DNA of 64,000 nucleotides from positions 1-64,000 of the forward strand of contig NZ_JACVCU010000001.1 of assembly GCF_014518425.1 (NCBI RefSeq), in the 5' to 3' direction. Shown here one piece after another: positions 9,720-49,528 of this stretch (its first letter is position 1; every line of letters begins with the position of its first letter). The translations under genes and the position numbers were made by a program. The stretch is from Terrabacter sp. MAHUQ-38. GTDB taxonomy: Bacteria; Actinomycetota; Actinomycetes; Actinomycetales; Dermatophilaceae. The notes under the pieces were generated by a model that was not told the DNA's origin, did not search any database, and was given only the letters and a program-made list of their open reading frames with translations.

Positions 9720-10664
9720 TCAGGCGGGGCGGAGCAGCTCGTCGCACAGCGCCGCGTCGGCGACGACAGCGTTGACCAGCCCACCCGCGAGCGCCGCCCG
9801 GACGGCCTCGCCCTTGCTCTTGCCGGACACGATCGCGATGACCTCGTCGATGCCGCGGAGCGCCTCGGCGCTGATCGTCACGATGCGCTGCGAGAGGGGT
9901 GGCTCGACGAGCCGGCCCTCGGCGTCGAAGAAGACGCCGGCGAGCTCGCCGATGATGCCGAGCGCCCGGATCTCGTCGCGGTCCGTGGACGACACGGCGT
10001 CGAAGACGGTCGACATGCCGGCGCCCCATGCGCCGACGCCCATGACGGCCTTGGTGACGCGTGCGGCCTGGCCGAGGACGCGGGCGACCTGCGGTTCACG
10101 CCTCAGCGTCGCGGCCCCGGTCGCGTCGTCGAGCAGGAGCGGCGCGTAGAAGATGGACGAGCCCCCGCCCGTCGCACGCGCCGCGCGGCGGACGATGTCG
10201 ACGGCGCTGCTGTCGTGGCCCTCGACCTCCATCGCACCGCTCAGCTGCACGACGTCGATGGTGGGCAGGTCGCCGAGCGCGCGGGTCATCGTGTCGACCG
10301 AGCGTGACCACGGCAGGCCGAGGACGTCGTCGTCGGTGAGGATCTCGCTCAACAGGCGCGCGGCCGCGGCGCCGAGGTGAACGGTGAGCGCCGCCGCCTC
10401 GACCCGGCTCCCGTCGACGACCACTGCGTGCCGCAGGCCGTAGCGCTCCTGGAGCTGGGCGGACCGGTCGAGGTCGAGCTCGCCGTCGGCGACGATCTCG
10501 ATGCGCACGATGCCCGAGTCGCGGGCGAACTCGATGAGGCGGGCGACCTTGAACCGGCTGAGGCCGAGCTCGTCGGCGATCTCGATCTTCGACTGGCCGG
10601 CGAGGTAGTGGCGGCGTGCGACGGCAGCCGCCAGCACGAGCTCGGCCGGACCTCGTCGCTCCAT
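9720..10664 (-). CDS. SorC/DeoR-type sugar-binding transcriptional regulator
   Basis: A 314-residue protein. The N-terminal helix-turn-helix (YLAGQSKIEIADELGLSRFKVARLI) is followed by a SorC-type effector-binding domain with LGLPWSRSVDTM and VSGKSKGEAVRAAL. ATG 10664 is preferred over GTG 10679 because GAAGGAG lies 7 nt upstream of it. The gene is divergent from the polyol operon with 152 bp between starts. It is therefore the likely local regulator, probably responding to a phosphorylated sugar such as xylulose 5-phosphate (inference). Confidence 0.88.
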   Translation of the reverse strand: MERRGPAELVLAAAVARRHYLAGQSKIEIADELGLSRFKVARLIEFARDSGIVRIEIVADGELDLDRSAQLQERYGLRHAVVVDGSRVEAAALTVHLGAAAARLLSEILTDDDVLGLPWSRSVDTMTRALGDLPTIDVVQLSGAMEVEGHDSSAVDIVRRAARATGGGSSIFYAPLLLDDATGAATLRREPQVARVLGQAARVTKAVMGVGAWGAGMSTVFDAVSSTDRDEIRALGIIGELAGVFFDAEGRLVEPPLSQRIVTISAEALRGIDEVIAIVSGKSKGEAVRAALAGGLVNAVVADAALCDELLRPA

Positions 10665-10741
10665 CCCCGTCTCCTTCACGCCTGAAGTCTGACGCCTGCG
10701 CGCCTCGCCCGTGACCGGACCCCCGGAGTTCGGACGGACGG

Positions 10742-10770
10742 TTGACAGCGCTGACGTCAGTCACTTTACT
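10742..10770 (+). promoter_or_regulatory. Predicted sigma-70-type promoter of the polyol operon
   Basis: TTGACA at 10742-10747 is separated by 17 bp from TTTACT at 10765-10770, a good match to housekeeping promoters. The GTG start of the binding-protein gene lies about 45 bp downstream. Confidence 0.6.
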
Positions 10771-10799
10771 CATATGTGCGCAGCAGCGCTCAAACGAGC
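10768..10799. promoter_or_regulatory. Candidate twin operator of the polyol regulator
   Basis: Two similar imperfect palindromes, ACTCATATGTGC (10768-10779) and GCTCAAACGAGC (10788-10799), share the pattern RCTCAnAnGnGC. They start exactly 20 bp apart, about two helical turns, directly downstream of the predicted -10 box. This is a plausible binding site for the divergently encoded SorC-type regulator. Confidence 0.5.
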
Positions 10800-10816
10800 G
10801 AACTCAAGGAGGAGAC

Positions 10817-12214
10817 GTGCGACGAGGCGAGGTCGGGCACCGACGACGAGGTGCCGGTCGGCGCGTGCTGGTGGTGGGGCTGACGACGGGTGTCGTCGCC
10901 GGCCTGTCGGCGTGCGCCGGATGGGGCGGGGGCGGCATCGGCGGGGGCGGGCCCGACAGCATCAGCGTGCTCATGGTCAACAACCCGCAGATGGTCGACC
11001 TGCAGCAGCTCACGGCGAAGTACTTCACGGCCAAGACGGGCATCACGGTGAACTTCACGGTGCTGCCCGAGAACGACGTCCGCGACAAGATCAGCCAGGA
11101 GTTCTCGAGCCAGGCGGGGCAGTACGACGTCGCCACCGTCTCCAACTTCGAGATCCCCATCTACGCCCAGGCGAAGTGGCTCAGCCCGCTCGACGGCTTC
11201 CTGGCCCAGGACACGCAGTTCGACCAGGCCGACATCCTCAAGCCGATGCAGGTCTCGCTGTCGCATGAGGGCAAGATCTACGGAGAGCCCTTCTACGGCG
11301 AGTCGTCCTTCCTCATGTACCGCAAGGACATCCTCGAGGCCAAGGGCGTGACGATGCCGGCCAAGCCGACGTGGCAGGAGGTCGCCGACATCGCGGCCAA
11401 GGTCGACGGCGCCCAGCCCGGCATGGCCGGGATCTGCCTGCGTGGCCAGCCCGGTTGGGGCCAGGTCTTCGCGCCGCTCACGACCGTCGTCAACACGTTC
11501 GGCGGCACGTGGTTCGAGAAGGACTGGACGCCCAAGGTGAACGCCCCCGAGTTCAAGGAGGCCGTGAACTTCTACGTCGACCTCGTCCGTGAGCACGGCG
11601 AGAACGGCGCACCGCAGGCCGGCTTCACCGAGTGCCTCAACAACCTCACCCAGGGCTCCGCCGCCATGTGGTACGACGCGACGTCCGCCGCGGGATCGCT
11701 CGAGGCCAAGGACTCCCCCGTCCGCGGCAAGCTCGGCTACGCGCCCGCGCCGGTCGTGAAGACCAAGAGCGCGGGCTGGCTCTACGCATGGTCGTGGGGC
11801 ATCCAGGCCGCGAGCACCAAGCAGGAGAACGCCTGGAAGTTCGTGTCCTGGGCCTCGAGCAAGGAGTACGAGCAGCTCGTCGGACAGCAGCTCGGCTGGT
11901 CGCGCGTGCCCGCCGGCAAGCGCGCTTCGACCTACGAGAACCCTGAGTACCTCGCCGAGGCCAAGGCCTTCGCCGAACCGACGAAGGCCGCCATCGAGTC
12001 GGCCGACCCGGCCAACCCGGGCGTCCAGCCGCGCCCCGCCCTCGGCGTCCAGTTCGTCGACATCCCCGAGTTCCCCGACCTCGGCACGCAGGTGAGCCAG
12101 GAGATCAGCTCTGCCATCGCCGGCAAGACGAGTGTCGACGAGGCTCTCGACAACGGCCAGGCCCTCGCCGAGGACGTGGCAGAACGCTACAAGGCACGGG
12201 AGGGTGACCAGTGA
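10817..12214 (+). CDS. Polyol ABC transporter substrate-binding lipoprotein
   Basis: A 465-residue lipoprotein of the family 1 sugar-binding proteins (sorbitol/mannitol SmoE type). The N-terminus is arginine-rich, followed by a hydrophobic helix and the lipobox LSAC. The mature part binds the ligand outside the membrane and delivers it to the two permeases. GTG 10817 is chosen because AAGGAGGAG lies 3 to 11 nt upstream. First gene of a five-gene operon with overlapping start and stop codons. No ATPase gene is present, so a shared MsiK-type ATPase elsewhere is probably used. Confidence 0.9.
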   Translation: MRRGEVGHRRRGAGRRVLVVGLTTGVVAGLSACAGWGGGGIGGGGPDSISVLMVNNPQMVDLQQLTAKYFTAKTGITVNFTVLPENDVRDKISQEFSSQAGQYDVATVSNFEIPIYAQAKWLSPLDGFLAQDTQFDQADILKPMQVSLSHEGKIYGEPFYGESSFLMYRKDILEAKGVTMPAKPTWQEVADIAAKVDGAQPGMAGICLRGQPGWGQVFAPLTTVVNTFGGTWFEKDWTPKVNAPEFKEAVNFYVDLVREHGENGAPQAGFTECLNNLTQGSAAMWYDATSAAGSLEAKDSPVRGKLGYAPAPVVKTKSAGWLYAWSWGIQAASTKQENAWKFVSWASSKEYEQLVGQQLGWSRVPAGKRASTYENPEYLAEAKAFAEPTKAAIESADPANPGVQPRPALGVQFVDIPEFPDLGTQVSQEISSAIAGKTSVDEALDNGQALAEDVAERYKAREGDQ

Positions 12215-30738: not shown

Positions 30739-31019
30739 CCGGTGAGATGTCCAGCTCACACATTGCGCGACCGGTCGGGGGCATGAGCGTGCGCCCGCCG
30801 ACGGGCTCGGCAGAAGACTCCGCGGACCGTTGGAGGTCAGCCTGCTCAACGCCCAGCGCTCGTATTGGGCGCAACTGAACCCAGGATGACGGCACCGTTC
30901 GAGTCGGGCCAGTCCCCAGCGGGCGCCGTTCAGCACGGGCGGCGACCGGAAAATGCGCACGGAGCGGCAGATCCGTCCGGTTCGGGACGAGCCAACGCTC
31001 AGTCCGTTACGGTCGCGGC

Positions 31020-32035: not shown

Positions 32036-32689
32036 CCGGTCAAGGGTCCGCGCGTCGAGCGTCAGGAGGTCGTGCCCTGGATTCCCGACGAGGCGGGCCA
32101 GTTCCTCGAGTCATTGGCGGGTCATCGACTGCACGCGCTGTTCGCGGTCGGCGTGGCTCTCGGTCTGCCCGAGGGCGAGTTGCTGGCCCTGCGATGGGAC
32201 GACGTCGACCTCAAGGCGGGCATCCTCCGCGTCCGGGCGACGGTCCAGCGGCTTGGTAAGGGGGTGGGCCTCGTGACCGGGTCGCCGAAGACCACTCGCA
32301 GTCGCCGGACCCTGCCGCGTCCCCGGGTCCTCGTCGACACGCTCGCCGCGCACCGGGCCGCGCAGAGCCGTGAGCGCGAGGCTGCTGGACCCAGATGGCA
32401 GGACGCCGGGCTGGTCTTCGCGACCTCGCGGGGGACGACGATCGAGCCGCGCAACCTGAACCGCTTCCTTGACGAGGCCATCGCTCGCGCTGGGTTGCGC
32501 CGCATCCGGTTCCACGACCTGCGCCACACCTGCGCCTCGCTCCTGCTCGCTCAGGGCGTGTCGGCTCGCGTCGTCATGGAGGTGCTCAGGCACACCCAGT
32601 TGAGCATGACAACCGACCTCTACGGGCACGTCATGCCGTCCTCCCTGAGGTCTGCGGCCGATGCGCTCGATGGGGTGTTCGGCAAGTGA
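32036..32689 (+). pseudogene. Truncated tyrosine recombinase (integrase), catalytic residue lost
   Basis: The catalytic domain of a phage-type integrase is readable from about 32036 (VKGPRVERQEVVPW) to the stop at 32687-32689. The N-terminal SAM-like and arm-binding domains are missing; a complete relative would have about 380 residues. Box II is intact (HDLRHTCASLLLAQG) and the tyrosine is present (TTDLYGHVMP). The first catalytic arginine, normally in G-L-R-x-G-E, is replaced: the sequence reads GLPEGELLALRW. The GTG at 32072 could still start a 205-residue fragment, but activity is unlikely. It adjoins its target tRNA. Confidence 0.83.
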
Positions 32690-39463: not shown

Positions 39464-39680
39464 GAGGTTGTTCAAAGGTCAACATTCAGCCCGGGCATGG
39501 TTGCTGAACTGTTACCATTGCCACGCAACATCGTCCACGACCCGGCCACGCTCCCGGCCGGGTCGCGGATGGTCTTCCCGGTCCTGCGGCATCGCATCGG
39601 CTGAGGGCGTGGGACTCCGCGCCTCCGCATGTGCTCCGCCTCCGAAGTGCTCCGACGGCGCTCCGTGCCCACAGAGCAAA

Positions 39681-39739
39681 TGGCGGAGGGCGTGGGATTC
39701 GAACCCACGATGGGCTATGAACCCATAGCGGTTTTCAAG
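39681..39739 (-). other. 3' half of tRNA-Ser(TGA): probable left attachment scar of a large element
   Basis: On the minus strand the sequence from the anticodon loop (CTTGAAA) through the variable arm, T arm (GTGGG-TTCGAAT-CCCAC), acceptor strand, discriminator G and CCA of a tRNA-Ser is intact. The adjoining 5' half (39740-39777) does not form D or anticodon stems: the anticodon stem would have two C-C mismatches. A 3' half ending at the anticodon loop is the usual product of site-specific integration. The intact gene would lie to the right of this window. Confidence 0.72.
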
Positions 39740-39777
39740 AGGGCCACACGCGCGCCGCTGACCTGCAGAAACTCCCT

Positions 39778-40187
39778 CCGCGGGCCGGACCTTGACGTCA
39801 ATTCGACGCGCGACGCTGAATCCCTCGCTGCCGGACGCCACTCGTGGTGCATCGCGCCCATCACGCGCCGCTGACCATGGTGCCGCGTGCCGAAGCGAGC
39901 CTCGAAGGATTCCGCTCGAGGCCTTTAGGCCAACCGTCCCGAGCGCGCCGAATCGCAAGGGCACCCGCTTGCGGGCGCTCATTCCATTGGTCTTCGTCTG
40001 CTGGGAGATGGTGTGCCTGGGGCCATCGCCCATGTGACGCTGTCTCACGGGCATACGCGGAGTATTGCGGAAGTCTCCTGTGCGCGACCGTCGAAGCCCC
40101 GACGCCGGCAAGCTCGGCAGGGCTGGCGCTGCTCCAGAAACGAACCCTTTAGGAGCACGCAGAGCGGGTCCGCTCGACGTGCTCGGG
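39778..40187. other. Gene-free stretch at element left end
   Basis: I see no gene with plausible codon use or ribosome-binding site. It follows the tRNA fragment and should contain element attachment-arm sequence. Confidence 0.5.
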
Positions 40188-40217
40188 AACGTCCTCAACT
40201 GCCGAGTTGAGGACGTT
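40188..40217. repeat. attC-like site 1
   Basis: AACGTCCTCAACT and its exact inverted copy around GCCG: a perfect 13-bp hairpin. It shares CCTCAACTGCCG with the site at 44998. Confidence 0.7.
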
Positions 40218-40343
40218 GGCGAGCAGCCGATCCAATCGATGAGCGTTCTCCGGGGGTGGCCGCTCCGTCACACTGGCCGGTGGAACGGTCGAGGCGTATG
40301 GCGTGTCTGTAATTTCGTGAGGGCGAGCAGCCGGGAGGCGAAT

Positions 40344-40802
40344 GTGGGCACTGCAACCGCAACCAGGGCGTCTGCAGGGCTCTTTGCGCTTGCGTTGGTG
40401 GCCTTTGCTGGGTGTTCAAGTACCAGCGGACTAGTGACGGAGGTCCCGGCTGCTGTCATCAGTTGGGCTCCCGGGGTGCCGGAGGACCTCATACGTGGGG
40501 CGGTGGATACGCCGCCGACCGCAAAGGGAGCGGCGCGGATCGCCGCAGGTTGGGGTCAACAGGCAGACCAGCTGCGGATCACCACGTGGGGCAGCTCGGG
40601 CTGCCCCAGCCTGCCCGACGTGGTCGAGCGAACCGGCAACCGCATCGAGGTCACAACAGTCGAGTACAACCCTCGTGATGACGGGTGCAACGCGGACGCC
40701 AGTCCTGCCACGAGTGTCATCAAGGTCCCGGCCGGAACGGACCGATCCACAGACGTCACAGTCGTCGTCGACGGGACCGAGGTCGTGGTGGCAAGGCGTT
40801 GA
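40344..40802 (+). CDS. Hypothetical lipoprotein
   Basis: A 152-residue protein. The signal peptide ends in the lipobox FAGC (ALALVAFAGCSSTSG). The mature part has two cysteines in CPSLPDVVERTG and DDGCNADASP, which may form a disulphide, and ends VTVVVDGTEVVVARR. GTG 40344 has GGGAGG upstream. No function is recognised; first gene of the cassette-like array. Confidence 0.7.
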   Translation: MGTATATRASAGLFALALVAFAGCSSTSGLVTEVPAAVISWAPGVPEDLIRGAVDTPPTAKGAARIAAGWGQQADQLRITTWGSSGCPSLPDVVERTGNRIEVTTVEYNPRDDGCNADASPATSVIKVPAGTDRSTDVTVVVDGTEVVVARR

Positions 40803-40967
40803 TTGTCGAGGTGGCCTGCAATGAGCCGTCACTGCGCCGTCGGCGGAGGGCTTGGGTGCGCGTCTTCCGCCTCTCGACGTCAGCGGCGTGGGCGAGCCCA
40901 ACGTCCTCGCCTGCCGCGATGGGCACCGACCCCGGCGGCTGATCAGGAAGGGCTCGGGGGTCGTCGT

Positions 40968-41273
40968 TCAGATTGAGGGTCGCTGGAGCTCTTCGCGGTT
41001 GCGACCTTCGTAGACCCACCACCGTGTGGCGGGCTGCTCCAACGCCCACGCGATCGCCTCGTCGCGGGTCAGGCCTCGTGGGCTGTCGTAGCAGCGAGCC
41101 TCGGTCTGCCACGACGCCTCCCACGTGCCATCCGAGTTGGCGATCACAAAGACCGCTCCGGTTCCGGGCTCGGGAGCCCCCTGGGGGCGCTTAGCGGACG
41201 GCTCGTTGGGCGGACGGGTGAGATGCTCGTACGAGTAGTCGCCCGGGTCCCCGTCGAGTCCAACGTCGCTCAT
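40968..41273 (-). CDS. Hypothetical protein
   Basis: A 101-residue soluble protein with a beta-rich core (GTGAVFVIANSDGTWEASW) and an Arg/Trp-rich C-terminal part (EQPATRWWVYEGRNREEL). The start is acidic and proline-rich. No family is recognised. It lies between attC-like sites 1 and 2. Confidence 0.6.
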   Translation of the reverse strand: MSDVGLDGDPGDYSYEHLTRPPNEPSAKRPQGAPEPGTGAVFVIANSDGTWEASWQTEARCYDSPRGLTRDEAIAWALEQPATRWWVYEGRNREELQRPSI

Positions 41274-41318
41274 GAGCCCATGATGCTCCTTACTTCAGCC
41301 AGCAGGAGAGCCGGAATC

Positions 41319-41341
41319 AAACGTCCGCTACTGCCGCTGGG
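41319..41341. repeat. attC-like site 2
   Basis: AACGTCCGCTACTGCCGCTGG, between two minus-strand small genes. Confidence 0.6.
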
Positions 41342-41344
41342 TGC

Positions 41345-41569
41345 TTATGGGTCGACGCGCGCGCGGTAGATCCAGATCACGCCGTCGTGAGGGTCGAGTC
41401 TCGGCTCACTGACGATCTCCGCCTCCCAATCCACCGAGACCGCTGGCCCGAGGAGGTCCTCCAAATCACTCGCGATGTCGGACATATCCTGTAGATCCGA
41501 CGCAGTCGTGCTGGACAGTCGGAAGCGAAGCACAACCCTCTCTTGGTCCACCGTAACGCCCACAGCCAA
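41345..41569 (-). CDS. Hypothetical small protein
   Basis: A 74-residue protein with alternating hydrophobic residues (VVLRFRLSSTTASDLQD, VSVDWEAEIVSEPRL), probably one small beta-alpha domain. The family is unknown. It is a single-gene cassette-like unit between sites 2 and 3. Confidence 0.55.
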   Translation of the reverse strand: MAVGVTVDQERVVLRFRLSSTTASDLQDMSDIASDLEDLLGPAVSVDWEAEIVSEPRLDPHDGVIWIYRARVDP

Positions 41570-41700
41570 CGCACTGGCGGCACCAAACCCAGCAAGGCTT
41601 GTGTCGCCTGCGCGGAAACGTAGTTGTCCCAGACGGGAGCATTGGCCAAATCGTCCGGGGACGGGAACCTCATGCCGTCAGTCTGCTGGACGGCGCAAGA

Positions 41701-41726
41701 AGAACGTCCGGAATTGCCGCACATGG
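41701..41726. repeat. attC-like site 3
   Basis: AGAACGTCCGGAATTGCCGC, between the genes at 41345 and 41751. Confidence 0.6.
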
Positions 41727-41750
41727 TCCGATGGCCGCGCGCACGAGGAG

Positions 41751-42173
41751 CTACGAGACGCGGCCCTTGCGGACGAACTGCGCCTGGTCCACCGCAGTCG
41801 CCATGAACAGGGCGCACCCGGGCCAGAACCACGGGTCGGTATCGATGGCCAAGACAGCGCAGCTGATCCCTCCCAGCGCGCACACCACGGCATCGGTAAG
41901 GAGATCGCCCCTACCGGTCTGCCGAATCTGCGCCACGTCCAGACGAGCTAACGCCGATGCGTACACGCCGCGGCCAAGGCTTAGGCAGGAGACGACCGAC
42001 GCGGCGACGACAACGGAGCGCTGATTCTCTGACAGCGGGATCTCGAATCCCCGTACCGCGGTGATGACCGCCACCGTCACTGCTGCGATCGCAGCGCCCC
42101 ACGCGGCCACCCGTTCCTTCGTTATCGGGAATGGGTCTTCGATGGGCCGATCCGCCCGCCACTTCACAGCCAC
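41751..42173 (-). CDS. Hypothetical membrane protein
   Basis: A 140-residue protein with four predicted helices (AAWGAAIAAVTVAVITAV, VVVAASVVSCLSLG, AVVCALGGISCAVLAI and WFWPGCALFMATAV). Charged ends; no known domain. It lies between attC-like sites 3 and 4. Confidence 0.6.
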   Translation of the reverse strand: MAVKWRADRPIEDPFPITKERVAAWGAAIAAVTVAVITAVRGFEIPLSENQRSVVVAASVVSCLSLGRGVYASALARLDVAQIRQTGRGDLLTDAVVCALGGISCAVLAIDTDPWFWPGCALFMATAVDQAQFVRKGRVS

Positions 42174-42244
42174 GAACGGTTCCTCTGCACGCCTGGATCG
42201 TAGAGGCGATCGGCCCCGGCTCGTGGGGAATCGCCCGCCGTAGT

Positions 42245-42273
42245 GAACGACGTCCGATCATGCCGCGCTGAGG
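42245..42273. repeat. attC-like site 4
   Basis: AACGACGTCCGATCATGCCG followed by CGCTGAGG; closely similar to the sites at 47945 and 47133. Confidence 0.65.
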
Positions 42274-42383
42274 GCGGCTCCGCATGGGTTGCGGTCGCGT
42301 CACGATCGCGGCGACCGCCGCCACCAGGCGTCGTTCCGGGACGATGCTCGCTGCACACGGCTTGATGAGACAGGGGTACTGCT

Positions 42384-42734
42384 ATGCGGCCGACTAGAGC
42401 GCTGGTCCTACTCACCATCGGCGGCCTAACTCTGGCCCTCGCGGGTTGCACATCCGAGCAGCCGTCGCCAATCCCGTCGGCACGTGGAGGCACGACGGTG
42501 GACCTCTACACCCACTGCGGCATCCGTTACCTGCAGGTCGGGGTCGACTGGTTCGAGCGAGTAGGCGGCCCTTTGGTGAACGAGGGCAACCCGCCCTCCG
42601 GCTGGGGGAATCCGAGTCAGCCTGGCCGGGTGGCGGTAAGTGGCGACCTCGCGACCTTCACGGATGACGCTGGGCACAAGGAGTCGTTCAGGAAACTCGA
42701 CAAGCCGCCATCGTCCGCAACTAATTGCGCCTGA
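42384..42734 (+). CDS. Hypothetical small lipoprotein
   Basis: A 116-residue protein. The signal peptide carries the lipobox LALAGC (residues 17-22). The mature part contains TTVDLYTHCGIRYLQVGVDW and ends in SSATNC; the two cysteines may pair. Proteins beginning with TVDLYTHCG-like strands occur as actinobacterial lipoproteins of unknown role. Confidence 0.68.
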   Translation: MRPTRALVLLTIGGLTLALAGCTSEQPSPIPSARGGTTVDLYTHCGIRYLQVGVDWFERVGGPLVNEGNPPSGWGNPSQPGRVAVSGDLATFTDDAGHKESFRKLDKPPSSATNCA

Positions 42735-43065
42735 CATCCTCGGGCCGAGGAGGCGTTCCGACGGAGCCAGCCTGCGCGCCCCCGGCCCGACCGGAGCCCC
42801 AGGTGCGATGAGCAACGCGCGCTCATCAGCGTGAGGTGTTTAGCGTCAAGGGCTGGTCGGGTAGCCCGGGCCTCGTCGTCGGTCCCTGCATAGCGGTAAT
42901 CGAGCTGGTGCTCGGCAGCGTGTGATCGGGTTGTGTCGACGACGGGACGGGGCGGCCTGTGATGAGCGACGAGATACCGCAAGGGTTCTCAATGCCGCGG
43001 AAGGCTCACCCCGCCCCAGCTCCTGACGGGTCGCACCTCGTGATGACGGCTCAGCGTGGATCTCG
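42735..43065. other. Gene-free stretch, includes IS110 right-of-gene end
   Basis: No gene is seen. It should contain the downstream end of the IS110 element and possibly a degenerate cassette site near 42740. The boundary cannot be fixed. Confidence 0.4.
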
Positions 43066-44436
43066 TTATGCCGCGGTCACTTCGACGAGGGTCTTGGTGC
43101 CGTGGGTGGCGATGACCGGGTCCCACGCCCGCTGCTGGACGACGACGGCGTACAGCTGGCGCAGGATCGCGCCGGCGACCGCGGTCTGGGCCTGGGTCGG
43201 GGTGAGCCGGTTGTGCTCACGACCGGTCAGGTGTCGGTAGCGGGCGGCGTACACCCGGTTGGTCTGTAGGCATCCCCACACGGCACGCCAAGCGGCGACC
43301 TGCAGCCCGGGACGTCCGGCGCCGGTGACGCGGGCGCGGCCGGTAAACGTTCCTGACTTCCGTTCCCGGGGTGCAAGGCCGGCGTGTTTGACCACGGCCC
43401 GGGCGGAGGTGAACCGGGTCAGGTCTCCGGTCTGGGCGAGGATCGCCGCCGCGCCGACCGGTGACAGCCCGTCGATGCTCGTGACCAGCCTCGTGAGGCC
43501 GAGCTCGTCGAGCACGCCCGTCATCCGCGCCTCGGTCTCCTCGAGCTTGGCTCGGGCGGCGTCCCAGTCGGCCAGCGTCCACTCGATGCGTTCGAACACC
43601 GCGGGCCGGTGCGCCAGGACCCCGGCGCCATCCGTCAGGGCCGCGAACAGCCGCCGCAGGATCCGCAGGCATGGCCGGACCCCGCCGCGTCGGGTGACCT
43701 CGGCGCGGACGGCACGCTCGAACCGAGCGCAGCCCAGGCGCCGGGTCCGGGCCAGGTCACCGCCGTCACGGCCGCGCGCCTGTCCTACGACGACGGCCAA
43801 AGCGGCGACGAACGTGGTCGACTTGAACGGCTGCCTCGCCGCCTCGAGCGCGGCCGGCCACACGCACTCGAGCAGGTCCCGGAGAGTCTGCACGGCTGCC
43901 ACGTGCTGCTCGAGCAGCTGTTCCCGTCGGGCGCCGAGGTGGCGCAGCCGAGCCCACGCTGCGCTGCCCGCATCGACCGGCTCTGGCAGGTAGCAGCGCA
44001 GCTGCCCGGTCAACCGTGCGATGAGCACCGCGTCCTTGTCGTCGGTCTTGTCGCTCGTGAGGTCCTCGGTCTTCCGTGCCCACGAGGAGGCGGCCGGTTG
44101 TACGCACACGAACGACATCCCGCGTTCGGCCGCGAGCTGAGCCAGCACCATCCACCGGTGACCGGTCGGCTCACACGCCACCGTCACCCCACCGAACCCG
44201 GCACGCGAGGCACGCTGACTCGCCCAGTCCAGTGCCGCGCCGAGGTCCCACGCCTTGCACCGGAACGTCCGACGCGCCAGCACCTTCGAGTCATGGTCGG
44301 TCACGACCACCATCTGCTTGCGGTCGGCCATGTCGATCCCCACGATCGCATTCGTGACCGGGACCGCCGCCCGCAGCCTGCTCAGCTTCGCGTTGCGGTT
44401 GCGATCTCCACGAGACACGCCACTACCGTTGTTCAT
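43066..44436 (-). CDS. IS110-family transposase
   Basis: A 456-residue DEDD recombinase. The N-terminal RuvC-like domain shows D35 (IVGIDMADRKQ), E89 (VACEPTGHRW) and D132/D135 (KTDDKDAVLIARL). The C-terminal Transposase_20 domain has SIDGLSPVGAAAILAQTGD and VVKHAGLAPRERKSGTFTG, with a serine expected to attack DNA nearby. Enzymes of this family are guided by a bridge RNA encoded next to the gene. The reading frame is intact. Confidence 0.95.
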   Translation of the reverse strand: MNNGSGVSRGDRNRNAKLSRLRAAVPVTNAIVGIDMADRKQMVVVTDHDSKVLARRTFRCKAWDLGAALDWASQRASRAGFGGVTVACEPTGHRWMVLAQLAAERGMSFVCVQPAASSWARKTEDLTSDKTDDKDAVLIARLTGQLRCYLPEPVDAGSAAWARLRHLGARREQLLEQHVAAVQTLRDLLECVWPAALEAARQPFKSTTFVAALAVVVGQARGRDGGDLARTRRLGCARFERAVRAEVTRRGGVRPCLRILRRLFAALTDGAGVLAHRPAVFERIEWTLADWDAARAKLEETEARMTGVLDELGLTRLVTSIDGLSPVGAAAILAQTGDLTRFTSARAVVKHAGLAPRERKSGTFTGRARVTGAGRPGLQVAAWRAVWGCLQTNRVYAARYRHLTGREHNRLTPTQAQTAVAGAILRQLYAVVVQQRAWDPVIATHGTKTLVEVTAA

Positions 44437-44519
44437 GAACGTCCTCCTTTTCGCGCTGGGACACCAAGCCCGACAAGCGCATCAGGAGGACGTTCCCCAC
44501 GCCAGACCCGACCGCGCAG
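44437..44519 (-). ncRNA. Candidate bridge-RNA region and hairpin covering the transposase ribosome-binding site
   Basis: On the minus strand CGTCCTCC at about 44485-44492 can pair with GGAGGACG next to the start codon of the transposase, enclosing about 37 nt with further short stems. IS110 elements encode their guide RNA in the non-coding end beside the gene. Exact ends and guide loops are not determined. Confidence 0.3.
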
Positions 44520-44570
44520 AACGCCTTTCTATGCCGCCAAGCGCGAAAGGCATGGCCGAGGATGGGCGTT
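44520..44570. repeat. attC-like site 5
   Basis: AACGCCTTTCTATGCCGCC opens the site and GGCGTT closes it; inside, GCCTTTC pairs with GAAAGGC. It is one of the clearest copies with both ends. Confidence 0.65.
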
Positions 44571-44591
44571 GCTCGAAGCCCAGAGCCTCTC

Positions 44592-44942
44592 TCACGGGGG
44601 GCCGTACCGCTCCCAAAGTTCGTCACGGACACTGCCTTGGAGTGGCTTGGCGTCAAACGTGCCGCCCGTGTCGTATCCGCTCTCAAACTTGCCCTGTTCT
44701 AGCTCCTCAACGGTGTACCACTCGGGCCCGAGGTCTTCCTCAGGTGGAGACGAGCGCCCATCTGGCCAGCAGACTCTGCAGAACAGCCGTTCGCGGCGTT
44801 CGCGGCCGAACGGCCAGTAGCGGAAGTGCTCCACCGAAGTGACGAGGTGGGCTTCCACTCTGCCGTTTCTGCTCAATTCCCAGACGGCGTCACGGTAGGG
44901 ATCCAGTCTTGGATCGCGTGGCCCAGCGTCTTCGGGGGACAT
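44592..44942 (-). CDS. Hypothetical protein
   Basis: A 116-residue protein, acidic and aromatic: AVWELSRNGRVEAHLVTSVE, FCRVCWPDGRSSPPEEDLGP and WYTVEELEQGKFESGYDTGG. The C-x-x-C-W segment could bind metal but is isolated. ATG 44942 has AGGAA upstream. Family unknown; cassette-like. Confidence 0.6.
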   Translation of the reverse strand: MSPEDAGPRDPRLDPYRDAVWELSRNGRVEAHLVTSVEHFRYWPFGRERRERLFCRVCWPDGRSSPPEEDLGPEWYTVEELEQGKFESGYDTGGTFDAKPLQGSVRDELWERYGPP

Positions 44943-44997
44943 GGGTTCCTGTCTACAGGACGCCGGCGGTAACGCCGGTGATTGCACGCATAACGCC

Positions 44998-45047
44998 AAC
45001 GCCCTCAACTGCCGCGACCCGAGCGATCGTGCCGAATAGCGGACGTG
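44998..45047. repeat. attC-like site 6
   Basis: Left arm AACGCCCTCAACTGCCGCGA, spacer CCCGAGCGA, right arm TCGTGCCGAATAGCGGACGT; the arms are imperfect inverted copies. The same layout recurs at 48369. Confidence 0.75.
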
Positions 45048-45094
45048 TGCTGCATTGCTCGACGCCAGATCGTAGGTGTCGGCAACGCGACCGT

Positions 45095-45523
45095 TCAGCG
45101 TCGCTGGGTGCGACGGATCAGCCATGGAGCTGCGACGGCTCCAGCAACTGTCACGGCGGCGACAGCGAGCAACACCCTCTCCAGCGGCCAGTCGGCGCGT
45201 GCCGTCGACTCGATGTATGCGATGGTCGCGCCCAAGGCACCTCCGAACAGCGAGCACACCCAGACGGGCGTCATCGCAACCATCCGTTCTTGGCGTTCGA
45301 GCACGCGGAAGAACCAAGGAATGAGCGCCGCGCCGGCCACGAGAGGCACCGCGTACCCCCATCCGCGCCCGTAGTCGTGCTGCCCCTTTGCGCTTAGCAA
45401 GAGAATGACGACCCAAGCGAGAGTGCCAAGGCGCTGGAACGAGATCCAGCGCCCGAGACCTCGGCTCCGCTCACCGCCGCTCCGAGCAGCGCCGGCGGCG
45501 CGTGTCACGTTCATGACGCTCAT
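45095..45523 (-). CDS. Hypothetical membrane protein
   Basis: A 142-residue protein with four predicted helices (LAWVVILLLSAKG, YAVPLVAGAALIPWFF, VWVCSLFGGALGATIAYI and LLAVAAVTVAGAVAAPWLI) and a basic tail IRRTQRR. The start at 45523 is chosen among several ATGs. Family unknown; cassette-like. Confidence 0.58.
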   Translation of the reverse strand: MSVMNVTRAAGAARSGGERSRGLGRWISFQRLGTLAWVVILLLSAKGQHDYGRGWGYAVPLVAGAALIPWFFRVLERQERMVAMTPVWVCSLFGGALGATIAYIESTARADWPLERVLLAVAAVTVAGAVAAPWLIRRTQRR

Positions 45524-45661
45524 CGTGCCGCATAAAGGCAATCCGCGAATTGGGTCACCGGTGCGTTTCAACGTCCCTCAGCTACCCCTCGGAGGATTGC
45601 CACGCTCGTCCTATATTTCCGTGTCGAGTTCGCGCCCTGCCCCGGCAGATATGGTCGTCGT

Positions 45662-45814
45662 ATGGGCATGGTGTTCGTCGGAGCGGGTCTCCTCCTCCTG
45701 GCGTTCTTCGCCTTCACCGGGGGTGCGCTGGCCATGACCATCGTCCTCGCTGTCGCCGGGCTCGTCCTCTTGGTGACCGGGGCCCTCCTGCATGCCCGTT
45801 CGTTGGATGGCTGA
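45662..45814 (+). CDS. Small two-helix membrane protein
   Basis: A 50-residue open frame: MGMVFVGAGLLLLAFFAFTG, then a second hydrophobic helix MTIVLAVAGLVLLVTGALL and the tail HARSLDG. The ribosome-binding site is weak. Third positions are GC-rich, supporting real coding. Between a weak site near 45516 and one near 45825. Confidence 0.5.
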   Translation: MGMVFVGAGLLLLAFFAFTGGALAMTIVLAVAGLVLLVTGALLHARSLDG

Positions 45815-45824
45815 CTAGCCCGCT

Positions 45825-45850
45825 AAGGCCTTCCGCTGATGCCGCCAGCA
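45825..45850. repeat. attC-like site 7 (weak)
   Basis: GGCCTTCCGCTGATGCCGCC, a more diverged copy before the next gene. Confidence 0.4.
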
Positions 45851-45910
45851 GTCGGTTGCGTCTGCCAAGGTGAGGTCCGTGAACGGCTCTACGGCACCTG
45901 CGGTCGCACC

Positions 45911-46291
45911 ATGAACGTGATTCGACCGCCCGAGGGCGAGGAGGAGGGCCCGATCCCCCTGGCTTGGCGGCCAACGCTAACCGCGATCGTGGACTCCCTG
46001 GTTCGACGGGATCCCGTCGTCGCTCAGCATCTGCAGGACGTGGAACGCGTGTCAGATGCCGTCAGGGACCAGTGCGTGGAGGCCCTCGCGGCCTACGGCG
46101 ACATTGAGTTCGTCCGCCTACCGAAGTCGAGCTGGGACTCTTCTGTGTGCCAGAAGTGGGGCGACTACTGGCGCTGCTACATCGACCTGTGGACGGCACA
46201 AGAGGGCCGCTCGGATCTGGTCCTGGAAGTAACCGCACGCGTCACCCCTAACGGATTTCGATTTGCCGTCGGCTCGGCGTACGTGCCCTGA
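45911..46291 (+). CDS. Hypothetical protein
   Basis: A 126-residue soluble protein: an N-terminal helical part (LTAIVDSLVRRDPVVAQHLQ) and a C-terminal beta part (YWRCYIDLWTAQEGRSDLVL, ARVTPNGFRFAVGSAYVP). The layout resembles small DUF7668-type proteins, but I am not sure. ATG 45911 chosen; an in-frame ATG at 45839 would overlap site 7. Cassette-like. Confidence 0.6.
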   Translation: MNVIRPPEGEEEGPIPLAWRPTLTAIVDSLVRRDPVVAQHLQDVERVSDAVRDQCVEALAAYGDIEFVRLPKSSWDSSVCQKWGDYWRCYIDLWTAQEGRSDLVLEVTARVTPNGFRFAVGSAYVP

Positions 46292-46295
46292 GGCA

Positions 46296-46334
46296 AACGT
46301 CCGGTCAACCTGCACTGAGTGCATATCCGGACGG
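46296..46334. repeat. attC-like site 8
   Basis: AACGTCCGG pairs with CCGGACGG, with an inner palindrome TGCACT-G-AGTGCA. It starts 4 nt after the stop codon of the preceding gene. Confidence 0.72.
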
Positions 46335-46534
46335 GTGGCACGGCGCGTGTCGCACTGGCGCGGTCCAGGCTATGGAAGCGCCCCTCGCGGGGCGCCTCCC
46401 GGACGCGGCCCTGCTCGAACGGGCGGCCTCCCTCTCCGAAGGGGATGCGATCGTCCGGAGCCATCGCACCTGGGGCCGGGACGCATTTAGGCTAGGCGCC
46501 GGGGGCCGCCGTCGTCGAGACAGTTCCCGTCGAG

Positions 46535-46560
46535 CGACATCCGGATATGCCGCTGGGTAC
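46535..46560. repeat. attC-like site 9
   Basis: GACATCCGGATATGCCGCTG; its CCGGATATGC is the inverse of GCATATCCGG in site 8, 210 bp away. The 200 bp between sites 8 and 9 hold no recognisable gene. Confidence 0.65.
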
Positions 46561-47106
46561 TCAGAAGGAGGGCGTCGCACACCCTGCTGCGAACGACTCG
46601 AGCTCGCTCGCCCACAACTCAAGGAATCCCGCGAAGGTGGTCGACAGCCTTCGGATTTGGTCCTCGGTGGCGGCGCGAAGGACTCCATCCGTGACGGCAC
46701 CTTCTTCGACGCGAAAGACCGCTCCATCCTCGTCAGTTCCCACAACATAGAGTGCGCCGCCGCCATCGGAGCCGATAACCAAGATCTCGACCTGGCGGCC
46801 GTCGAGCATGAGCCACCGCGGGGCTCTTTCGGCGTGAGTGGCGATGAGCCGGCTCACCGGTCCCAGGAAGTAACCGTTCCACACGTCGGGGAGGCTGACC
46901 TCCTCGATCGCGTCGAAGAACTCGAGCACGGAGGGCGGGGCGACGGCGTCGTGCTTGAGTTGCCCGCTGAGCCGGGACCCGTCTCGCCCAGGCGCGGTGA
47001 TGACGACGTTGCGGTCCGGGGGGTAGCCGAGGCGCTCCTCGAAACCCTCCAAGAGCTGGCTGGTTGAATGCCGCACCCGATCGACCCACGCATCGAGATC
47101 AGTCAC
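46561..47106 (-). CDS. SMI1/KNR4 (SUKH)-family protein
   Basis: A 181-residue protein with the SUKH core: VLEFFDAIEEVSLPDVWNGY, then WLMLDGRQVEILVIGSDGGG, ALYVVGTDEDGAVFRVEEGA, and a C-terminal helix TFAGFLELWASELESFA. Many SUKH proteins are immunity proteins against contact-dependent or polymorphic toxins (family knowledge). No toxin is adjacent. GTG 47106 is chosen so that the protein does not run through site 10. Confidence 0.75.
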   Translation of the reverse strand: MTDLDAWVDRVRHSTSQLLEGFEERLGYPPDRNVVITAPGRDGSRLSGQLKHDAVAPPSVLEFFDAIEEVSLPDVWNGYFLGPVSRLIATHAERAPRWLMLDGRQVEILVIGSDGGGALYVVGTDEDGAVFRVEEGAVTDGVLRAATEDQIRRLSTTFAGFLELWASELESFAAGCATPSF

Positions 47107-47132
47107 CCGCTCAGCATGCCCAACCCCGAGTG

Positions 47133-47163
47133 AAACGCAACGCGCGGACATGCCGCGGTGAGG
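47133..47163. repeat. attC-like site 10
   Basis: AACGCAACGCGCGGACATGC followed by CGCGGTGAGG, between divergent genes. Confidence 0.65.
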
Positions 47164-47202
47164 ATCTGTCTGGCCAAGCACAAGGTGAGCAAGGATGGGC
47201 GA

Positions 47203-47883
47203 GTGAAACCGTCCGACGCGATCCGGGTCCTCATCGTCGACGACCACGCCCTCTATCGACGGGGGCTACAGACGGTGCTTGCCATCGAGGACGGCATCGA
47301 GGTGGTGGCAGAAGCCGCCGACGGTGTCGAGGCGGTCGAGCGCGCAGAACAGGCCCTGCCGGACGTCATTGTCATGGACGTCGGCATGCCCAAACGCGGC
47401 GGGATCCACGCCTGCCGCCTCATCAAACAGCGAGTCCCCTCGGCACGGATCATCATGCTCACAGGTTCGGACGACGACGGGGACCTGTTCGAAGCGCTTC
47501 AGGCTGGCGCCAGTGGCTACCTGCTCAAGCAGGCGACGGAAGAGATAGCCGACGGCATCCGCAACGTCTTCGGCGGCCACTCCCCACTGTCGCCGGTAAT
47601 GGCCACCAAGTTGATTCTCGAGTTCAACCAGGTCAGCCGACGAGCTGAGGCGCCCACGACCACGCCGGCGATCGAGTCAGCCCGGTTGACCGACCGAGAA
47701 CTCGAGGTCCTTGACCACGTCGCCCGAGGGCGCACGAATCAGCAGATCGCGGCCGAGCTGCACATCTCGGAGAACACGGTGCGGAACCATATCCGCAACA
47801 TCCTCGACAAGCTCCATATGCACTCGCGGATGGAAGCGGCGCTGTACGCGGTGCGCCGACAACTCATAGACCCCGCCAAATGA
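47203..47883 (+). CDS. NarL/LuxR-type response regulator
   Basis: A 226-residue two-domain protein. Receiver domain: acidic pair in IVDDHALYRRG, phosphoacceptor D59 (VIVMDVGMP) and the conserved lysine in GYLLKQ. LuxR-type helix-turn-helix: LTDRELEVLDHVARGRTNQQ and IAAELHISENTVRNHIRN. No histidine kinase is near, so the partner lies elsewhere or is a host kinase. GTG 47203 has AAGGA upstream. It is an unusual cargo for a small-gene array. Confidence 0.92.
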   Translation: MKPSDAIRVLIVDDHALYRRGLQTVLAIEDGIEVVAEAADGVEAVERAEQALPDVIVMDVGMPKRGGIHACRLIKQRVPSARIIMLTGSDDDGDLFEALQAGASGYLLKQATEEIADGIRNVFGGHSPLSPVMATKLILEFNQVSRRAEAPTTTPAIESARLTDRELEVLDHVARGRTNQQIAAELHISENTVRNHIRNILDKLHMHSRMEAALYAVRRQLIDPAK

Positions 47884-47944
47884 CGAGGCCCTGCTCTGAG
47901 CAAGGCTCCCAAGCCCGCCGGCACCATTTCGCGCTCAGTTAGGC

Positions 47945-47990
47945 CGACATGTTTCGCGTCGTCGACGACGTCCGAACATGCCGCTGACGG
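47945..47990. repeat. attC-like site 11
   Basis: GACATGTTTCG and CCGAACATGCCGC pair around the palindrome GTCGTCGACGAC; GACGTCCGAACATGCCGC is the conserved half. Confidence 0.72.
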
Positions 47991-48024
47991 CGCCTAGGTC
48001 CTGCCGATGGGTCGGACGTCTGTG

Positions 48025-48312
48025 TCACGTACCCGTCGAGGCAGAACCTCCGTCGCCACGCTCGTTGGCCGGCCCTTCTGCCAGCATCAAGGATGAGAGG
48101 AATCGGAACAACGCGGCGAAGGCAGCGACGACGGCCGCCGCACCCAGATCGATCAGCCCGGTCTCGTTCTCTCCGGACAAGAAGCTCGCCGCGCTGAGGA
48201 CGACCAGGCCGGCGGCCACGGCGAAGCCCACATATGAGGCGACCCGATAGCTGCGGCCGACATGCTCTCCGCCCTTGTCGAGTGCACGCTCGAACTCCTT
48301 CGGAACGTCCAC
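48025..48312 (-). CDS. Hypothetical membrane protein
   Basis: A 95-residue protein with two hydrophobic helices (VASYVGFAVAAGLVVLSAAS and LIDLGAAAVVAAFAALFRFL) after a charged start (VPKEFERALDKGGEHVGRSY). GTG 48312 is the best start beyond site 12. Family unknown. Confidence 0.55.
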   Translation of the reverse strand: MDVPKEFERALDKGGEHVGRSYRVASYVGFAVAAGLVVLSAASFLSGENETGLIDLGAAAVVAAFAALFRFLSSLMLAEGPANERGDGGSASTGT

Positions 48313-48368
48313 ACCACAGATTATGTCGCGCCACGCTGACTCGCGGACGAGCCCGCGGCCGGCCGCCC

Positions 48369-48415
48369 GCTTCTGCCGCGAACGGCGCGATCGTGCCGAC
48401 GAGTTGAGGACTGGA
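48369..48415. repeat. attC-like site 12
   Basis: CTTCTGCCGCGA, spacer of 9 nt ending GCGA, then TCGTGCCGACGAGTTGAGGA; same layout as site 6. Confidence 0.72.
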
Positions 48416-48494
48416 CGGTGCGCGTGACGTTGACGGATCGACGTCTGAAGCGGACAGCCTCTTGGTACGTTCAAGCAAACGAGGGAGGCGCTCG

Positions 48495-48797
48495 ATGACC
48501 TCGCAGAACGCACCGACGATCCGCGCACGGTCAACAGCCGCGTTCCTGCTGTTCAGTGCCTTGGCAGTCGTTTGTGCGTCCGTCTTGCTGTACGCCACGT
48601 CTCTGAGTCGAGCCACCGCGGTGTGGATCAGCCCGCTGGGTGCAGCACTCTTGGTGACAGGGCTCTGGACGGTACGGACCGGCCGGCGGCCTCACCGTTG
48701 GGTCCTGTTCGTTCTACGCCTTGTGGCACTGGCCTTGATCGTGCTCGGACTGTGTACCCTCACCATCGCCCTTCTGGCTGAGGACCAACCGGCCTGA
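48495..48797 (+). CDS. Hypothetical membrane protein
   Basis: A 100-residue protein with three predicted helices (AAFLLFSALAVVCASVLL, AVWISPLGAALLVTGLW and VLRLVALALIVLGLCTL). ATG 48495 has a strong GAGGGAGG site 6 nt upstream. Family unknown; cassette-like. Confidence 0.68.
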   Translation: MTSQNAPTIRARSTAAFLLFSALAVVCASVLLYATSLSRATAVWISPLGAALLVTGLWTVRTGRRPHRWVLFVLRLVALALIVLGLCTLTIALLAEDQPA

Positions 48798-48830
48798 CTT
48801 AAGTTCGTCAGCGCGTCGAGGGGTCACCGG

Positions 48831-48880
48831 CACGGCCGCTCATGCCGCAGATCGCGCGATCTATACGGCCATGCTGAGGG
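48831..48880. repeat. attC-like site 13
   Basis: CGGCCGCTCATGCCGCAGAT, then GCGCGATCTATACGGCCATG; its GCGCGATC is shared with site 12. The next gene starts 2 nt after it. Confidence 0.65.
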
Positions 48881-48881
48881 C

Positions 48882-49262
48882 ATGACACCCGCTCGGGCCA
48901 TCTTCGTGTTCACGGCCGATAACGACCTACTCATCTTTACCGGCCTCGACGAGGCTTCCTCCTGGATGGAAGCCGTCGACGTGGACGACGGCGAGTACCC
49001 AGCGATCTACACCGACGAGGGCAGCGTCGTAAAGGCCTCGCTGAACTCTGAGACCGTGGTCCTGGCTGACTCCGGTCGCCGCGACCTCGACGATCTCTCG
49101 AACCGCCTCGCGAGATACGCCGAGATGGTCGATCTACCGGCACCGACGGACAGACTCGCCTTCGCGAACACCATGCTCAAGCGGGAGTGGGACAGACAGC
49201 GATCCCGCCGCCCCCGTTGGCTCTTCAAGCGCATCTACGGCGAAACGCCACCTTTCGTCTGA
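48882..49262 (+). CDS. Hypothetical protein
   Basis: A 126-residue soluble protein: beta strands ARAIFVFTADNDLLIF, an acidic centre, a helix RDLDDLSNRLARYAEMVD and a basic C-terminus (REWDRQRSRRPRWLFKRIYG). No known family. ATG 48882 lies 2 nt after site 13, so its translation signals overlap the site. Confidence 0.65.
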   Translation: MTPARAIFVFTADNDLLIFTGLDEASSWMEAVDVDDGEYPAIYTDEGSVVKASLNSETVVLADSGRRDLDDLSNRLARYAEMVDLPAPTDRLAFANTMLKREWDRQRSRRPRWLFKRIYGETPPFV

Positions 49263-49280
49263 TTGCAGCCTTCGTTGGTT

Positions 49281-49320
49281 GACGCGTCCGGACCGTCCTG
49301 TCATGCCGCGGACCGTGCGC
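49281..49320. repeat. attC-like site 14
   Basis: ACGCGTCCGGACCGTCCTGT followed by CATGCCGCGGACCG; last clear copy of the array. Confidence 0.6.
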
Positions 49321-49528
49321 GGCCGGCGTCGATTCGAGCTCCAGAAACGCCCGTTTGTGGAGCGCGCGGCAACGGAACGTTTCTGAGGCGCGCCGATGGA
49401 GCTCGCATGGCTTCCTGCGTCGTGCTCGGTAAGACGCCTCGGCGCGGCGAGTCCGTCGCTTGAAGGCGGCCGGCCCTACCGTCGGTTCAGGCGCAAGGAC
49501 CAGGCCGAGCTCCAGATAGGTGATGAGC

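Follow-up and report, generated by a model that had tools for sequence, protein, structure and literature searches.

Positions 40188-49319 of the 64,000-nt stretch analysed here (from contig NZ_JACVCU010000001.1 of Terrabacter sp. MAHUQ-38; "the window" denotes this whole stretch) contain 13 copies of a 28-bp element (RACGTCCGNNNNTGCCGCNNNNNGNNCG), all on the forward strand and separated by small genes in mixed orientation, nearly one per interval. From sequence comparisons, the region is very probably a gene-cassette array of a system of Actinomycetota that is integron-like without being an integron and that uses a Xer-like recombinase. The wider proposal, i.e. that bacteria possess a second, independently evolved cassette-capture system with double-strand sites and a Xer-derived recombinase that is itself a cassette, widespread in Actinomycetota, is somewhat favoured. 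The solid part consists of the sites, their one-strand order, the breakpoints at the sequence TGCCGC, and the linkage of the recombinase gene to the sites.

The core RACGTCCGNNNNTGCCGC was obtained by reading the region and aligning the sites listed in a first-pass annotation of the same DNA, which had described an array of single genes with a repeated element. A first site matrix (30 columns, threshold 17), trained partly on sites of the window, gave 13 matches in the window at or above the threshold, all on the forward strand within the array, and none on the reverse strand. The expectation from 30 first-order Markov controls is a mean of 0.07 matches per 64 kb for both strands, so that this part of the annotation holds. 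A second matrix was built from 236 sites of non-Terrabacter loci, which had been chosen via the first matrix and are thus not wholly independent. At scores of at least 12 it recovered 12 of the 13 sites; the one at 44520, which lies at the end of an IS110-family insertion sequence (IS), is below 12. The sites are listed here with their scores from the first and second matrix (compared loci carry L numbers and genomes G numbers):

40188-40215, forward strand: site 1, scores 26.7 and 26.1; ends in TGCCGA instead of TGCCGC; a perfect palindrome reaches beyond the site
40900-40927, forward strand: site 2, scores 18.9 and 15.7; not in the first-pass list
41320-41347, forward strand: site 3, scores 23.9 and 23.8
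41703-41730, forward strand: site 4, scores 26.7 and 23.2
42249-42276, forward strand: site 5, scores 32.0 and 28.0; start of homologous cassettes in L028 (another Terrabacter) and L047 (Humibacillus)
44520-44547, forward strand: site 6, scores 17.1 and below 12; rebuilt at the right IS110 junction
44998-45025, forward strand: site 7, scores 23.8 and 25.9
46536-46563, forward strand: site 8, scores 20.8 and 22.5
47139-47166, forward strand: site 9, scores 21.8 and 19.9
47967-47994, forward strand: site 10, scores 27.7 and 23.3
48362-48389, forward strand: site 11, scores 21.0 and 21.9
48831-48858, forward strand: site 12, scores 25.0 and 21.4
49292-49319, forward strand: site 13, scores 25.8 and 27.7

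Twelve of the 13 sites listed in the first-pass annotation are real, some of them displaced by several bases (47967, 49292, 48362, and 47139 had been given as 47945, 49281, 48369, and 47133, respectively), and the site at 40900 had been missed. The remaining one, at 46296, is palindromic but lacks the TGCCGC core, and received no score; together with a candidate at 45828 it was removed from the site count as weak. The sole matches of the second matrix with scores of at least 12 outside the array are two weak ones on the reverse strand, at 30768 (15.0) and 30954 (14.1), which lie near a phage-type integrase gene (32072-32689). A hairpin-like repeat beginning with GCTCCAGAAACG is present at 40131-40160 and 49338-49367; the two copies are 77% identical, lie 9.2 kb apart, and border the array immediately before site 1 and after site 13.

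A genome-wide pattern search with two mismatches was swamped by chance matches (332 and 286 versus 500 and 519 for the control) and is uninformative, so that clustering and strand, not counts of weak matches, carry the case. Two further arrays were found in the same genome, one on contig 11 (L009, 7 sites, all on the forward strand) and one on contig 16 (L010, 4 sites with scores of at least 16 plus two weaker ones, all on the reverse strand). In addition, four forward sites with scores of at least 16 are scattered over 504-535 kb of contig 1. The core with one mismatch was matched in all nine genomes of the genus that were searched, with control counts of similar size in several of them, and therefore clusters alone were followed in these genomes. 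The resulting 115 sites over 24 loci are nearly always confined to a single strand per array. An opposite-strand match occurs once in the window and once in each of L038 and L042, and those of the window and L038 are homologous and lie outside the arrays. In the family, the exact 28-base pattern was found in 27 of 119 genomes and 17 of 53 genera, versus 5 matches in all for a control pattern; single matches may be due to chance. Arrays also contain tandem copies of the site 27-34 bp apart. One Humibacillus array (G047, L047 2593-2941) has twelve sites head to tail, 29 bp apart, i.e. empty cassettes consisting of the site only. In L040, a locus of a relative, tandem repeats of about 120 bp each (reverse-complement 10213-11849) lie outside the cassettes examined.

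To locate breakpoints, the array loci were aligned with one another, using reverse-complement coordinates for loci with reverse-strand sites. This yielded 3477 alignments of at least 120 bases, 3081 of them with sites in both partners, and 300 shifts served as the null. In the latter set, 31 starts and 35 ends were bounded by the core in both partners, and 6 alignments were bounded at both sides. The null means were 0.25, 0.19, and 0, with maxima of 3, 6, and 0, respectively. The commonest offsets were exactly the T of TGCCGC (11 of 31 starts) and its last C (11 of 35 ends). Many of the 66 core-bounded ends belong to segments with the recombinase gene described below. Inspection by eye showed that TGCCGC begins the segments shared by L029/L044, L030/L032, and L027/L028 and ends those shared by L028/L034 and L033/L034; other pairs in the same display have no start or end at TGCCGC.

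Complete cassettes are common to different genera. One is found in Terrabacter G003 (L028 8816-9408) and Humibacillus (L047 1266-1851) with 86.6% identity, and the cassette of the window at 42249 is homologous to it (84% to L028, 86% to L047). Another is common to Humibacillus and G058 (L048/L055, 73%). In two Terrabacter genomes, a common stretch of about 350 bases next to tRNA-Ser(CGA) stops at TGCCGC. The sequences differ beyond this point, where one of the two genomes has an IS110 element; in the window's genome no array was seen in the 367 bases of contig that precede this tRNA gene. We infer from these comparisons that recombination has occurred and that cassettes were probably exchanged between species with breakpoints in the site, the placement that the first-pass annotation had named as a test for comparisons of strains.

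A tyrosine recombinase of about 305 residues, here called IntX, is encoded inside arrays of Humibacillus (L048) and Terrabacter Ter38 (L050), in the direction of the array; the two proteins are 91% identical. Among 186 genomes of the family, 54 contain a match to IntX at 1e-40, and most matches belong either to a close clade (at least 63% identity, some in fragments) or to a clade near 42%. Thirty loci with such matches were analysed. In the close clade, 20 of 21 loci (L060-L079 and L081, the exception being L072) have same-strand sites with scores of at least 14 within about 1.5 kb. For comparison, none of seven loci of the 42% clade (L083-L089), which served as a control, has a site within 1.5 kb. 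We also scanned GTDB genomes and analysed the best 80 of 128 IntX relatives, which are found in Micromonospora, Actinoplanes, Amycolatopsis, Lentzea, Nocardia, Nocardioides, Cellulomonas, Kineococcus, Propioniciclava, Tessaracoccus, Ornithinimicrobium, and others. At these 80 loci, 261 sites with scores of at least 16 lie on the strand of IntX and 5 on the opposite strand. At least one same-strand site is present at 72 loci and at least two at 60, and no locus has two opposite ones.

The sites flank IntX on both sides, 156 being upstream and 105 downstream, and a site is often found 70-118 nt upstream of the gene, which resembles an ordinary cassette boundary. In comparisons between species, segments with IntX begin at TGCCGC or close to it (offset 0 for L101/L106 and L123/L141, -10 for L103/L104). 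Because of the sites on both sides and these segment starts, the IntX gene itself appears to be a cassette. IntX matches on plasmids are all below 60% identity (5 records at 1e-30), and viral contigs yielded one relative (38%). Near single arrays in G009 (L057) and G047 (L047) there are longer integrase genes, which look phage-type by sequence and were discarded as candidates.

The anatomy of the element was derived from 259 sites near IntX genes, chosen by the first matrix. The dyad lies between C14 and C15, i.e. in the centre of TGCCGC, and the halves mirror each other, each column of the left one agreeing with its reverse-complement counterpart in the right one (C, G, T/C, C, C, G/T), while the central TGCCGC is asymmetric and nearly invariant. 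The right half is also visible in columns that were not used for selection (G at +23 in 100, C at +26 in 78, and G at +27 in 74 of 106 sites). The site is composed of two inverted arms of about 11 bp with the consensus CG(T/C)CC(G/T) around a 6-bp centre, a layout like that of dif, which has 28 bp arranged as 11-6-11. It agrees with the description of the site of a simple tyrosine recombinase as an inverted repeat with a centre of 6-8 bp, and the linkage suggests that it is the substrate of IntX. Outside the actual recombinase site, TCGTGCC occurs in 15 of 106 sites versus 1.4 expected. The starts of cassettes often carry TCGTGCCGA about 29 bases past the start of the site, e.g. at 45027-45035 and 48391-48399 of the window.

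To characterise the enzyme, IntX was compared with known recombinases. The catalytic residues R158, K184, H248, R251, H274, and Y283 are kept in an alignment of 15 members, except that R251 is replaced in one of them (L074). Among NCBIfam models, three members are nearest to the Xer models, with 107-127 bits versus cut-offs of 279-335, and the nearest solved structure is XerD (1.3e-21). The integron integrase model TIGR02249 matches these three in its last, C-terminal box only (47, 48, and 62 bits versus a cut-off of 265). About 20 residues of the catalytic domain of IntI1 (R388) are absent from two aligned IntX members; the available text of PMC8138268 describes this insertion in the catalytic domain as specific to the integron-like group, though not fully conserved there. 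In a tree, IntX and the 42% clade group apart from IntI1 and from two host Xer-like proteins; this tree is rough, the IntI1 branch being very long and one Xer row short (38% of columns filled). An AlphaFold model of IntX was poor (mean predicted local distance difference test score 59.9) and was set aside. By sequence, IntX is thus Xer-like and not an IntI, in line with the suggestion of the first-pass annotation that a cassette-like system with a different recombinase might be involved.

At 1e-15, the window's genome contains only a frame-broken, distant IntX relative at 507.5 kb of contig 1 (L011 5517-6429; 34% identity over most of its extent, 65% in the final 60 residues) and, on contig 14, a Xer-like protein (33%). 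The genome therefore has no intact IntX, and the array of the window is without a recombinase, as the first-pass annotation had stated, like a cluster of attC sites without an integrase (CALIN). The frame-broken gene stands amid a few scattered same-strand sites. The array probably lies in a genomic island. Five Terrabacter relatives are homologous to the window as far as 39586, after which no further homology was seen in the 29-38 kb used per relative, and a 3' fragment resembling tRNA-Ser was recognised by reading at 39685 (it was not reported by ARAGORN); together they suggest an island with one end near 39586-39780. The right-flank protein has one weak match only among eight other genomes of the genus.

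Several observations weigh against the proposed system. Both matrices descend from one first alignment, so that the motif, as opposed to strand and position, is partly circular, and the right arm of the site is weaker than the left one. Most of the 3081 alignments do not end at a core (the set includes IntX, IS110, and chromosomal matches). The alignments are non-independent, and 6 of the 35 right ends belong to one IS110 element. At 8 of the 80 IntX loci, several of which come from one genome, there is no same-strand site with a score of at least 16, and no sites were found near the weaker relatives L080 (49%) and L082 (fragments). No entry point resembling attI was found. The array-bearing genomes G000-G004 lack a full-length IntX match above 41% identity; G000 has a frame-broken relative with 65% identity in its final 60 residues.

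In the least improbable alternative, not IntX but host XerC/XerD move the cassettes, as proposed for the pdif modules of Acinetobacter. The 28-bp 11-6-11 layout matches dif, eight of nine genus genomes have a Xer-like pair (labelled by reading), and arrays exist without IntX. Against this stand the association of IntX with the sites, in position as well as in strand, and a TGCCGC centre common to many genera, which fits a dedicated enzyme. We consider the explanation improbable as a general one, though host XerC/XerD could act in genomes without IntX.

Even less probable is a dispersed intergenic repeat, similar to a repetitive extragenic palindrome (REP) or a miniature inverted-repeat transposable element (MITE), that accumulates in a variable region with immobile cassettes. 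It would account for a short imperfect palindrome between genes, for the tandem copies, and for IS110 elements that target the repeat. Against it, copies lie on one strand in nearly every array, shared segments are bounded exactly at TGCCGC, and the sites go with a recombinase gene in both position and strand. Furthermore, the element is not dispersed among the ordinary genes of the window (the rest of the genome was searched by pattern only).

The first-pass annotation had named an integron-type cluster without an integrase as one of two readings. In its canonical form this would be a CALIN remnant of attC cassettes that were moved as folded single strands by a lost IntI. Single genes with one site each, sites on one strand, and the lack of a recombinase gene with the array are all as expected for a CALIN. 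However, complementary positions show no covariation (107 sites, and 236 sites with mirror-pair z values of -1.6 to 2.3), nor do the sites fold more strongly than random sequences (mean z -0.44 on one strand and -0.54 on the other versus -0.28; 120 of the 236 sites sampled). A few copies are good palindromes (40188, 46296, 47967), the first of which the annotation had called a perfect hairpin, but a hairpin common to the copies is not supported. The attC cores RYYYAAC and GTTRRRY, which the annotation had already failed to match, are absent from the column counts of 106 and 259 sites, and ACGTCCG and TGCCGC are seen instead. An inverted repeat at an asymmetric hexamer, lacking covariation and folding excess, points to a double-strand, dif-like tyrosine-recombinase site and not to attC. 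None of seven matches to the integron integrase model in the window's genome is above the cut-off, IntX itself is far below it and lacks the IntI1 insertion, and complete integrons are reportedly absent from Actinobacteria (available text of PMC9024848). The attC identity of the array is therefore abandoned, a CALIN being very unlikely.

The array is interrupted by an IS110-family element, which has split a site:

42814-42826, forward strand: left half-site AACGCGCGCTCAT, split after CAT by the IS110 element, read from the sequence
42827-44532, reverse strand: IS110-family element within the site core, between CAT and GCCGC; its ends are deduced
43066-44436, reverse strand: IS110 transposase (Pfam DEDD_Tnp_IS110 7e-23, Transposase_20 2.9e-17)

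The right end of the element provides a new left half-site (AACGCCTTTCTAT). Similar left junctions are present in L009, L048/L090, and L049, and similar right ends in L009 (two), L040, L049, and L165; a left-like end in L028 has a differing continuation. Each junction seen lies between CAT and GCCGC of a recombination site, with the half-site rebuilt at the right end, and this precise targeting is an independent sign of a special site core. Further copies of the family are found at L009 3369-5078 and, in reverse-complement coordinates, at L048 7120-8855 and L049 12923-14638, and several arrays contain a second IS110 type (open reading frames (ORFs) of about 320-490 residues). A 1.4-kb segment common to many arrays, which was the first candidate for the recombinase, is by sequence an IS110-type transposase. 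That guide-RNA-dependent IS110-type recombinases build the arrays, with IntX as a passenger, is the least likely explanation of all: the transposases recur in arrays and insert precisely, but their insertion accounts only for their own place, the symmetry of the site is that of a tyrosine-recombinase target and IntX is associated with it, and IS110 families occur in just 2 of 84 scanned cassette proteins (a set that excludes the transposase of the window and the transposase ORF L031:5410-6375).

The intervals of the window mostly hold one gene. Exceptions are 42249-44520, with a lipoprotein-like gene and the IS110 element, and 44998-46536, with several ORFs:

42384-42734, forward strand: cassette gene, lipoprotein-like by inspection, no Pfam family; the cassette common to L028 (84%) and L047 (86%)
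44592-44942, reverse strand: cassette gene, no Pfam family; cassette common to G002 (L035), 84%
45839-46291, forward strand: cassette gene with DUF7668 (Pfam PF24705, 2e-24)
46561-47052, reverse strand: cassette gene with a weak SUKH-1-like match (Pfam E value 0.047, below cut-off)
47158-47883, forward strand: cassette gene for a response regulator with a LuxR-type helix-turn-helix (Pfam Response_reg 3.3e-28, GerE 3.5e-21)
48025-48312, reverse strand: cassette gene, no Pfam family
48462-48797, forward strand: cassette ORF
48882-49262, forward strand: cassette gene, no Pfam family

Among the ten proteins of the window that were scanned with Pfam, the transposase, the response regulator, the DUF7668 protein, and the weak SUKH match stand beside six without a family. 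Over all arrays, 80 intervals span 27 to 3298 bases, and the ORFs chosen in those longer than 200 bases point in either direction (37 reverse, 31 forward). The 84 cassette proteins were picked from about 100 candidates plus some ORFs of the window, with our own gene caller, so that some frames may be wrong. They matched 69 Pfam families at 1e-4, most in one protein each. The 25 families listed include sigma-factor regions (4), acetyltransferases (3), MazF/PemK toxins (2), and tautomerases (2), as well as Arr, an aminoglycoside nucleotidyltransferase family, and a beta-lactamase family with one each. PADLOC matches mostly consisted of many kinase-type models on one protein and were not accepted as defence genes. 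In a genome of the same family, a cassette gene (L055 9962-10381) matches the rifampin ADP-ribosyltransferase Arr-ms (3.8e-41). The Arr family also occurs in class 1 integrons, and the system may thus bear on the origin of resistance cassettes.

The catalysis, the circular intermediates, and the order of events that we infer for the proposed system would be as follows. A cassette would be one small gene, sometimes several or none, between direct repeats of the site of about 28 bp. IntX would bind two double-stranded sites by their arms, cut at the borders of TGCCGC, and exchange strands, so that directly repeated sites would free the intervening cassette as a circle, which could re-enter another site with its orientation kept. 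The asymmetric and nearly identical centre of all sites would explain release as a circle and re-entry in the same orientation, and the latter, in turn, why arrays keep their sites on one strand with genes pointing either way. Apparently lying in a cassette itself, the IntX gene could travel and be lost. The three arrays of the window's genome would then be stranded, or mobile only with IntX supplied or with a substitute, e.g. host Xer proteins.

The plan is that of the integron, and the parts that were tested are not. As in integrons and CALINs, cassettes mostly contain single genes with one site each, sites are co-directed with few exceptions, cassettes with breakpoints in the site are common to several species, many genes have no assigned function, arrays occur with and without a recombinase, and insertion sequences of the IS110 kind target the site, comparable to the IS1111-attC elements of integrons. 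In contrast, the recombinase here is Xer-like and not IntI, its gene lies between sites, apparently as a cassette, and not beside a known attI, the site is a double-strand inverted repeat of about 28 bp with a fixed TGCCGC centre instead of a folding attC, and the main ORFs point either way. XerC/XerD-dif share the 11-6-11 layout of the site, and XerD is the nearest solved structure, whereas IntX stays below the cut-offs of the Xer models and groups apart from the two host proteins. The pdif modules are also gene modules bounded by Xer-type sites. However, the orientation of pdif sites alternates and their recombination relies on host XerC/XerD, whereas the sites here share one direction and are associated with a dedicated recombinase. 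Such modules, with genes flanked by Xer-type sites, are described for Acinetobacter plasmids in the available text of PMC7399989, and the name IS1111-attC appears in that of PMC11187229. No paper describing the present system was among the literature matches listed, preprints and most subscription journals lying outside the search.

If the proposal is true, much of Actinomycetota would have its own cassette system, overlooked because searches target IntI and attC, with a pool of mostly unknown small genes that have a defined mode of transfer. It would be a counterpart of the integron with which the purpose of single-strand attC folding could be tested, and would offer a simple recombination tool of two parts for use in high-GC bacteria. 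Any array could acquire or lose its own recombinase and could give rise to new arrays.

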